DNA of 10,322 nucleotides from an uncultured Granulosicoccaceae bacterium (GTDB lineage: Bacteria; Pseudomonadota; Gammaproteobacteria; CALCKW01). Location: NCBI GenBank assembly GCA_937941555.1, contig CALDHJ010000452.1:1-10322 (forward strand), in the 5' to 3' direction. The position numbers and the translations under genes are program-made. Under the pieces are notes generated by a model, which saw nothing but the letters and a program-made list of their open reading frames with translations, was not told the DNA's origin and searched no databases. How positions within the stretch are numbered: position 1 is the stretch's first letter; every line of letters begins with the position of its first letter. This document shows, piece after piece, positions 4,166 to 6,479 of the stretch.

Positions 4166-5356
4166 TCACTCGGTGGATTCTCCACAATAGTCGCTTAGGC
4201 TCCTTCGAAAGGCCGACAGGCTTGCGCTTCGAACGAACACGATCGGTTTGTTTTGGCGCTGGCACAAACGCTTTGCGCGGTGCATCGCACTGTGGCTCAA
4301 CATCTTCGTGTTGCACATGACGACATCGGCTTTTGACACGAGGTCGTCGATCCGGGCATCGGCCGTCTCTGTGCCACCGTCGTAGTGCAGAAAATGCCCC
4401 TTGTGTTGTTCCACCGCCTCGCGCATGAAGCGGCATTGCCGGGTTTGGCCGCCCAACAGCAGTACACAACGTCCGCACACGCCCCTTGGCGAAGGTGGGA
4501 GAGTTGTGCGTTCTTCCATGCACAGTGCGGCAGCCTGCTCGATGTCTGGCCGTGGCTTGTGCGGTGTGTGCACCGAACTCGGCGTCTGATTGATCCGCGC
4601 GCGTTGGTGGCGCAACACTTGGCGTTGGCTCTTGTCCAGTTGCGCACTCAAGCGGTTGTTTTCAGCCTTCAACACCGACAGCTGTGAACGCAGTTGGTCA
4701 ACTTGACTGGCCGTCTTGGCCATGATCTCGGCTTCCGTTTTTCTCAGGTGAACGGCGTGGTTCGCGCGTTCCTGTGCCAGCGCCTCTCTCAACTCCCGAC
4801 TCAGGGCGTCCGAGCGGTTGCGCTCTTCGATCAGCCGGTTGATTCGCCGCTGTTGATTCGTCGCGCGTTCACACCCGCTGTGCGAAAGCATGTGGACATC
4901 GCCATAGACCAAGTCCAGCAGCGTCGAACTGCAGAGCGCATGACTGACGACGGACCACAGTGCGTTCGCAATGCGATCGCCCTTTTGCTCGGATTGCCAG
5001 AATGCCTGCAGCGTGGCGGTGTTCATGCCTCGCGTCTCAGCAATCTCCTGTCGATATTTGCGTTTCAAGAGTGAATCGAGCCGACCGGGTACGCCGGTTC
5101 GGGGATCGGAGCATGCCTGAACAATCGCGTGGTGCTGTTCGTAGGCCGTGAGCAGCGCAGGGTCGTGTCCGGCGGTTTTGCACAGGGATCGCGTTTCCCG
5201 GGCATCAAGGCATGAGCCCACCACAGGACAATGCATCCAGTTGGGCAGATCGCTGATACGTCGGCGATCCGGTCGTCTTGTTGGCTTCCCGGCCAGCGTA
5301 CGCTTACCCACAAAGTGTCCTGGATCTACCGGGAGGTCAGCCGCTCTTCGCACCAT
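4166..5356 (-). CDS. DUF2325 domain protein of unknown function, predicted Fur-regulated
   Basis: The biochemical function is unknown. The 396-residue protein has three parts. The N-terminal part (about 36-165) carries LPNWMHCPVVGSC (37-49), a histidine pair (75-76), WSVVSHA (134-140) and YGDVHMLSH (151-159); I recognise HCP..GxC and GDVHMLSH from other DUF2325 proteins of beta- and gammaproteobacteria. A charged, heptad-like segment (about 165-255) is a probable coiled coil. The C-terminal DUF2325 domain (about 294-383) reads VLLLGGQ, HYDGG (324-328), DVVMCNT, SHSAMHRAKRLCQ and PIVFVRSASLSAF. No signal peptide or membrane span is seen, so it is probably cytoplasmic. Conserved Cys/His residues suggest metal or thiol chemistry (inference); a CGRC pair (294-297) starts the last domain. 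The ATG at 5356 has GAGG only three bases upstream and AAGGGA eleven upstream, so the start is moderately certain. A perfect Fur box overlaps its promoter. It converges with ffh, 25 bases apart. Three hand-counted 60-base lines gave 55-58% GC, below the two lines counted in the next gene. Confidence 0.85.
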   Translation of the reverse strand: MVRRAADLPVDPGHFVGKRTLAGKPTRRPDRRRISDLPNWMHCPVVGSCLDARETRSLCKTAGHDPALLTAYEQHHAIVQACSDPRTGVPGRLDSLLKRKYRQEIAETRGMNTATLQAFWQSEQKGDRIANALWSVVSHALCSSTLLDLVYGDVHMLSHSGCERATNQQRRINRLIEERNRSDALSRELREALAQERANHAVHLRKTEAEIMAKTASQVDQLRSQLSVLKAENNRLSAQLDKSQRQVLRHQRARINQTPSSVHTPHKPRPDIEQAAALCMEERTTLPPSPRGVCGRCVLLLGGQTRQCRFMREAVEQHKGHFLHYDGGTETADARIDDLVSKADVVMCNTKMLSHSAMHRAKRLCQRQNKPIVFVRSASLSAFRRSLSDYCGESTE

Positions 5357-5392
5357 GTGCCTCGCTATCCCTTGCGATATGAGTTTCGCCTT

Positions 5393-5420
5393 AATATATG
5401 ATAATGATTATCATTTGCAA
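5393..5420 (-). promoter_or_regulatory. Sigma70-like promoter of the DUF2325 gene
   Basis: On the minus strand TTGCAA (5420-5415, 4 of 6 matches to the -35 consensus) is followed by a 16-base spacer and TATATT (5398-5393, 5 of 6 matches to the -10). Transcription would start near 5386, giving a leader of about 30 bases before the ATG at 5356. The spacer is filled by the Fur box. Confidence 0.65.
5398..5414. promoter_or_regulatory. Fur box (ferric uptake regulator operator)
   Basis: The 17 bases ATGATAATGATTATCAT form a perfect inverted repeat with 8-base arms around one central base. The core at 5399-5413, TGATAAT-G-ATTATCA, matches the 7-1-7 Fur consensus at every position. The 19-base window 5400-5418 matches the classic Fur box at 16 of 19 positions. 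It occupies the spacer between the -35 and -10 of the DUF2325 gene, where Fur-Fe2+ binding would block RNA polymerase. In an otherwise GC-rich region such an AT-rich palindrome is unlikely to be chance. Zur and other Fur relatives use similar but distinguishable sites; this one fits Fur best. Confidence 0.88.
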
Positions 5421-5609
5421 GTGGCTACGGTTCGGCACGCCGTCGCCTGATCGTATGGGCGTTGGGGGCCTGCGAACGGTCTACCCTCTTGAATTCCGGG
5501 GTCCCGCCTAAACTTCCGGTGTATGGCGGCGTCCGACAGTCATCGTTTGCGCGACCCGCTCCACGGGTGCGTGGACTCATCCAGCGTCCGGCAACGAGGC
5601 AGCGAGCAC

Positions 5610-6479
5610 ATGAATGTTCAGGAAATAGCGGCTTTTTCGGATGGCGCAGTCGGGGGCAATCCCGCCGGGGTGTGGCTCGGTGATCAACCCCTTGGGCGCG
5701 ACCACATGCAGGCCATTGCAGCCGAGCTTGGCCACTCTGAAACCGCCTTTGCAGTGCCGGAAGGAACCGGTTGGCGAGTGCGGTACTTTTCACCGGCGAT
5801 GGAGGTGCCGTTCTGTGGGCACGCCACCGTTGCGCTCGGCGCGGCGCTTGCGATGGCGCACGGCAACGGGGTGTTTCCGCTGCTGCTTAACGACGGCGAG
5901 ATCTCGGTTGAGGGGCGTGATCATCACGGTGAGCTGACCGCTGCATTGCAGTCGCCGCCGACGTCGCATACGGCGTTGAGTGACGCACAACTCATGCGCT
6001 ACCTGTCGCTGCTTGGTTACCAGCACGATGATTTGTCGAACGACTTGCCGCCAGCCTTGATTCACGCTGGCGCCGACCACTTGTTGCTACCGCTGTCATC
6101 GCGCGCGGCACTGTCACGCCTCGACTACGACCTCGAGACCGGTGCACGGATCATGCGCGGAGACGGCCTGGTGACGGTTATGTGCGTGTTTGCCGAGTCG
6201 GCGACGGTGTTCAGTTGCCGTAATGCCTTCGCCTCGGGCGGCGTCAAGGAGGACCCGGCAACCGGGGCTGCGGCGGCGGCATTTGGCGGGTATTTGCGTG
6301 ATGCCAAGCTCTCAACCGAGCGTGTGCTGGATCTCAAGCAAGGCGACGACATGGGCATGCCGTCTCGCATACGGGTCGAGTACAGCGAGGTGCCCGGCAG
6401 CAGCGTTCGCGTGTCGGGTCAGGCGCGTGTGATGGGCGCGACCCGCGCGGTGGGCGAGCCGCTCGAAACCGAAGCCTGA
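5610..6479 (+). CDS. PhzF family isomerase/epimerase-like protein
   Basis: PhzF-family proteins share the diaminopimelate-epimerase fold and act without a cofactor. The type member isomerises trans-2,3-dihydro-3-hydroxyanthranilate in phenazine synthesis, but most housekeeping members, probably including this one, have unknown substrates, and no phenazine genes are nearby. From ATG 5610 the protein has 289 residues, a normal family length. Visible landmarks are FSDGAVGGNPAGV (9-21), the catalytic glutamate E44 in HSETAF (42-47), FSPAMEVPFCGHATVALG (60-77) and the C-terminal-half motif GVKEDPATGAAA (211-222). The cysteine at 69 before GHAT is typical. The frame is open back to ATG 5523, but that adds 29 residues with no family likeness, and 5610 matches the usual N-terminus; GAGG lies ten bases before it. 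It stands alone, divergent from the DUF2325 gene and convergent with deaD. Its GC is high (63-73% in two hand-counted 60-base lines). Confidence 0.9.
   Translation: MNVQEIAAFSDGAVGGNPAGVWLGDQPLGRDHMQAIAAELGHSETAFAVPEGTGWRVRYFSPAMEVPFCGHATVALGAALAMAHGNGVFPLLLNDGEISVEGRDHHGELTAALQSPPTSHTALSDAQLMRYLSLLGYQHDDLSNDLPPALIHAGADHLLLPLSSRAALSRLDYDLETGARIMRGDGLVTVMCVFAESATVFSCRNAFASGGVKEDPATGAAAAAFGGYLRDAKLSTERVLDLKQGDDMGMPSRIRVEYSEVPGSSVRVSGQARVMGATRAVGEPLETEA

Follow-up and report, generated by a model that had tools for sequence, protein, structure and literature searches.

We identified a putative Fur operator preceding a gene that encodes a DUF2325 protein in a window of 10,322 nucleotides (the whole stretch of DNA that was analyzed) from an uncultured Granulosicoccaceae bacterium. 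The gene is convergent with ffh, and a PhzF-like gene (plus strand, 5523–6479) diverges from it. These neighbors, and a DEAD helicase, are uninformative about iron. An earlier note on this DNA had assigned the gene to DUF2325 from the sequence alone, and the assignment is confirmed by a match to PF10087 at residues 297–389 (82.2 bits against a cut-off of 33.6). The features are collected in Table 1.

Table 1. Features of the DUF2325 locus in the window, and homologues with a ModE-like palindrome
Feature	Position	Strand	Basis
DUF2325 long-form gene, 396 aa, single-gene unit convergent with ffh	4166–5356	−	PF10087, 82.2 bits
DUF2325 domain, Rossmann-like	4190–4468	−	PF10087 match and structure prediction
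Long helix, coiled coil, residues 144–254 (about 110 residues)	4595–4927	−	Structure prediction
N-terminal helical domain with C43, C49, H75, W120, W134, H139, H155, H159	4853–5275	−	Alignment and structure prediction
−10 hexamer TATATT	5393–5398	−	5/6 to TATAAT, spacer 16
Fur operator (predicted), 7-1-7 core; palindrome 5398–5414	5399–5413	−	0 mismatches; unique at 0 in the assembly; recurs before homologues
−35 hexamer TTGCAA	5415–5420	−	4/6 to TTGACA
ModE-like palindrome clade	Upstream of DUF2325 in L124, L125, L126, L127, L129, L140, L142, L143		

The operator core consists of the 15-mer TGATAATNATTATCA, which matches the 7-1-7 Fur consensus with no mismatch at the 14 scored positions and is embedded in a 17-base palindrome (ATGATAATGATTATCAT), both as the earlier note had claimed. 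Against the longer 19-base Fur consensus, 17 of the 19 positions agree. The core, TGATAATGATTATCA, lies inside the spacer of a minus-strand TTGCAA/TATATT pair. Reading that strand directly (TTGCAA-ATGATAATCATTATCA-TATATT, spacer 5414–5399) upholds the further claim that the box fills the 16-base spacer, and the site thus overlaps the predicted promoter, which is itself a modest match (9/12). The promoter ends 36 bases before the ATG, which starts at 5356, and the Fur core 42 bases before it, not 43 as had been stated. In the window there are two pattern matches with up to three mismatches, the second overlapping the first, compared with 0.04 expected from 200 shuffles.

A promoter scan of positions 5300–5650 returned two promoter-like sites (0.2 expected), both on the minus strand and directed toward the DUF2325 gene. 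It is very unlikely that the operator serves the PhzF-like gene instead. The palindrome does occupy the intergenic region, and the first possible ATG on the plus strand follows it by 109 bases, but both promoter-like sites point the other way, and in homologous loci the site accompanies the DUF2325 gene whatever its neighbors.

The assembly that contains the window (3.43 Mb in 600 contigs, 79% complete) has 25 places that match the pattern with up to three mismatches, compared with two for the backwards pattern. The window site is the only one without a mismatch, a single site has one mismatch, and none has two. A gene that begins 45 bases downstream of the one-mismatch site encodes an extracellular solute-binding protein (SBP_bac_6 and related Pfam families), which we read as the ferric-iron, FbpA-like type. 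We did not find a fur gene in this 79%-complete assembly; the only gene of the Fur superfamily detected is Zur-like, and it adjoins genes that we read as znu-type. All three congeners, however, encode a Fur-family protein (133–142 bits), so the gene is likely missing through incompleteness of the assembly. The genus itself probably falls within Granulosicoccaceae, since the protein of G002 appears identical to one from a named bin of that family (L055).

These observations bear on the identity of the regulator. Zur sites would be expected to look different from Fur sites, and the window sequence is a perfect Fur consensus. In addition, the gene read as ferric-iron uptake follows the assembly's second-best site, the congeners have Fur, and iron genes neighbor the homologues described below. 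Binding by another member of the superfamily (Zur, PerR or Mur), with zinc, peroxide or manganese as the signal, is therefore improbable, even though the Zur-like gene is the only one found in the assembly and excerpts of one report place a Campylobacter DUF2325 gene under PerR as well (PMC9426514).

We examined the same pattern upstream of other DUF2325 genes. The first sample comprised 40 full-length homologues, drawn from 22 of 30 matched genomes (eight short or weak matches were left out), four of six further loci (L052 and L055 were dropped as apparent copies of G035 and G002), three new loci, and eleven full-length rows. Of these, 39 had at least 250 bases upstream and were scored; L073 had no upstream DNA. 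The scored interval was fixed at −250 to +75 around the open-frame start (325 bases). A box with up to two mismatches precedes 15 of the 39 homologues, compared with 0.08 expected from dinucleotide shuffles, and these 15 span at least ten families. With up to one mismatch the count is six (0.01 expected), and with up to three it is 21. The reversed pattern was found in 0 of the 39 intervals, and control intervals from coding parts gave 0 of 80, likewise at three mismatches. These counts and controls, together with the 0.04 matches expected in the window, refute a chance palindrome, to which we give a negligible probability.

In 13 of the 39 homologues a sigma-70-like promoter lies over the Fur site, and eight of these promoters read exactly TTGACA-N16-TATCAT, in which the far half of the box serves as the −10 element. 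The 24 homologues without a site of up to two mismatches in the fixed interval include five of a molybdenum type, described below. The other 19 lack both a close Fur site and a molybdenum site; three of them (L057, L058 and L071) have a Fur site further upstream, six have a site with three mismatches, and ten have nothing close. Thirteen short or partial DUF2325 rows were kept outside the count; in a wider stretch, 5 of the 13 have a site with up to two mismatches.

A later sample of 45 homologues (44 + 1 new rows; the partial rows G869:C316 and G886 were left out) was scored with the pattern and interval already fixed. Here 26 of 45 have a box with up to two mismatches and none has the reversed pattern, although the boxes are strongly clustered: one genus contributes 23 (of its 32 homologues) and all others together 3 (of 13). 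The two samples support the Fur-box reading by comparison of orthologous promoters. The nearest relatives, whose lack of the palindrome the earlier note had named as grounds for rejection, are divided: congener G001 keeps the box with two mismatches, in congener G002 the best is a weak site with four, and no DUF2325 homologue was found in congener G003.

Fur-like sites also occur upstream of some short genes. Four genes of the same class that encode DUF2325-only proteins (L115, L116, L117 and L119) have sites with 1, 2, 3 and 4 mismatches, respectively. Three short DUF2325 genes of one family in another class (L107, L108 and L112) are preceded by TGATAAAAATTATCA-like sites with one to two mismatches, whereas others of that family lack them.

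A second palindrome was identified for the molybdenum type. Five homologues of the first sample of 39 carry CGnTATAT-N8-ATATAnCG, presumably the layout of ModE sites, with zero or one mismatch, which was reached in 0 of 300 shuffles for each; none of the five has a close Fur site. Of four plasmid homologues examined, those of Caballeronia (one mismatch), Ensifer (none) and Methylorubrum extorquens CM4 (L143; one) have the palindrome, and that of Azospirillum has a weak Fur-like site and no ModE-like palindrome. One of the 45 homologues of the later sample (L162) also matches with no mismatch. The pattern was written after the first five carriers had been seen, and independent support therefore comes from the three plasmid members and L162. 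In a quick tree the eight carriers listed in Table 1 form one clade (SH-aLRT 99).

In some members of this clade the genomic context also relates to molybdenum. In CM4 the DUF2325 gene and a ModE-type gene (94 bits, just under the cut-off of 98.5) flank the palindrome, and the cluster includes modA, modB and glp. A TOBE-domain gene and a ModA-like gene adjoin the DUF2325 gene in L129, and a gene with a molybdopterin-binding domain adjoins it in L126. Residue 348 is phenylalanine in all eight members of the clade and cysteine in 30 of 32 members outside it, the latter being defined by exclusion and not all carrying a Fur box. The window gene has six mismatches to the ModE-like pattern and a cysteine at 348, and thus does not belong to the ModE-linked clade.

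Neighborhoods outside this clade point to iron. The 121 genes that lie no more than two places from 34 homologues (genes called with our own script) include 12 that are ferritin-like, eight for TonB receptors, four for imelysins and three for Fur-family proteins. When the stretches around the 34 loci, including the window, were fetched and compared directly, bacterioferritin was found in nine loci, TonB receptors in eight, imelysin in four, HemP in three and an FbpA-like protein in one, with at least one of these in 17 of the 34. The L051 locus of Cocleimonas flava DSM 24830 combines a box of one mismatch with neighboring genes for HemP and a Fur-family protein. Bfd-like motifs are present in L059, L069, L053 and L054, and small proteins near three long-form homologues match the PA4570 model below its cut-off (28–58 bits versus 100). 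The iron and molybdenum neighborhoods overlap, as L121 on the iron side has a ModA-like match and L126 on the molybdenum side a TonB-type outer membrane protein. A small protein of about 80–90 residues also recurs near DUF2325 genes outside the molybdenum clade (L051, L059, L060, L062, L064 and L072); the four tested have no Pfam match.

The window protein follows the plan of the long form, a His/Cys helical domain followed by a coiled coil and the DUF2325 domain. Residues C43, H75, W120, W134, H155 and H159 are invariant in 44 of 44 aligned homologues, and C49 is kept in all 44 but two degenerate congeners. The window protein has Tyr325 and Met352 where most others have histidine and cysteine, and is therefore a divergent member; it also occupies a long branch in the tree. 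AlphaFold (7 sequences) predicts a helical domain, the helix of residues 144–254, and a Rossmann-like domain with a mean pLDDT of 80. The pTM of 0.39 gives no firm relative placing of the three parts. The helical domain modeled alone reaches a pLDDT of 92 and a pTM of 0.84.

Two further observations concern the homologues. Those of congeners G002 and G001 (L022 and L075) keep the N-terminal histidines, but their DUF2325 domain no longer has its DGG and SH motifs. Many long forms begin with Met-Cys (L051, L058, L060, L061, L062, L069, L071 and L074, among others), although their N-terminal tail is otherwise variable.

Structure comparison gave no informative match for either the helical or the Rossmann-like domain, the matches of the latter including response-regulator receivers. 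Such matches, in models with a long coiled coil, together with the presence of the same residues in iron-side and molybdenum-side members, would suit a protein that regulates the iron-starvation response, or serves it as an adaptor, while binding neither metal nor cofactor itself, its histidines and cysteines being structural. We regard this as possible but somewhat doubtful. Middling Z scores to common Rossmann-like folds show no function, and the strict conservation of four histidines and two cysteines in a small domain suggests more than a structural role.

Considering these data together, the operator, the promoter layout and their recurrence before homologues can be read from the sequences themselves, and the regulator of the window gene is very probably Fur. 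The earlier note had proposed expression mainly under iron limitation. This is supported by the recurrence of the box, the iron-gene neighbors and the precedent in Campylobacter, and from these we infer the iron response. There is thus a good probability that the operator represses the DUF2325 gene when iron is plentiful and reserves the product for metal scarcity; that the product acts in metal scarcity is, taken separately, fairly likely. With plentiful Fe2+, Fur would occupy the palindrome between the −35 and −10 elements and keep RNA polymerase off the promoter. Under iron shortage Fur would be released, and the gene would be expressed as a single-gene unit. The predicted product, which combines a small His/Cys helical domain, a coiled coil some 110 residues long and a small Rossmann-like domain, is most likely cytoplasmic.

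Given the textbook Fur site and the same arrangement before relatives, the DUF2325 family probably aids cells when iron is scarce. It is not solely related to iron, as one clade is tied to molybdenum. The product most likely helps the cell to withstand metal scarcity and acts close to iron storage and uptake, given that homologues neighbor genes for bacterioferritin, TonB receptors, HemP and imelysin and that one clade is instead linked to a ModE-like site and molybdate genes. The product might be a dimeric metal- or cofactor-handling adaptor with the His/Cys domain as its working part. More broadly, we tentatively suggest that long-form DUF2325 proteins are a cytoplasmic class for metal scarcity in which the metal is set by promoter rewiring, with Fur in the main line and ModE in one clade, a change accompanied by Cys348 to Phe. 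The shared His/Cys domain would then do the same job for either metal, whether in handling the metal or cofactor or as an adaptor for its recovery from storage. The occurrence of one architecture in two metal-starvation responses argues for a general role in metal economy over one specific to iron.

DUF2325 has no assigned function, and the Fur signal makes the question of its function experimentally approachable. The promoter signal, recurring over at least ten families and accompanied by iron neighbors, places many long-form members in the Fur regulon. The ModE-wired clade was unexpected and draws attention to residue 348. No co-mention of DUF2325 and molybdenum was found in the literature searched, and the excerpts of literature naming DUF2325 mention neither the promoter conservation of the long form nor the molybdenum clade.

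In published work, repression by Fur and a strong response to iron are described for a short Campylobacter DUF2325 gene (PMC4491227, PMC3815106), so that the window case extends a known regulon and iron control of DUF2325 is not new. This gene, cj1384c of Campylobacter jejuni, belongs to the katA gene cluster and is reported to be also under PerR and RacRS (PMC9426514). Its product shares the DUF2325 domain with the window protein but, at the 104 residues given there, has no room for the helical domain or the coiled coil. PA4570 of Pseudomonas aeruginosa is reported to carry a Fur site and to be induced when iron is lacking (PMC13277308, PMC5145850). Small proteins that resemble its family, by the sub-cut-off matches above, are neighbors of three long-form homologues and not relatives.

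The ModE regulon for molybdate uptake is resembled by the DUF2325 clade that has a ModE-like site, in some members near modA, a TOBE protein or a ModE-type gene; the window gene differs in having no such site. Gammaproteobacterial Fur operators likewise place a 7-1-7 palindrome over a sigma-70-like promoter, and the assembly has such a site before the solute-binding protein read as ferric-iron type. The window operator differs from these in its target, a family without known function.
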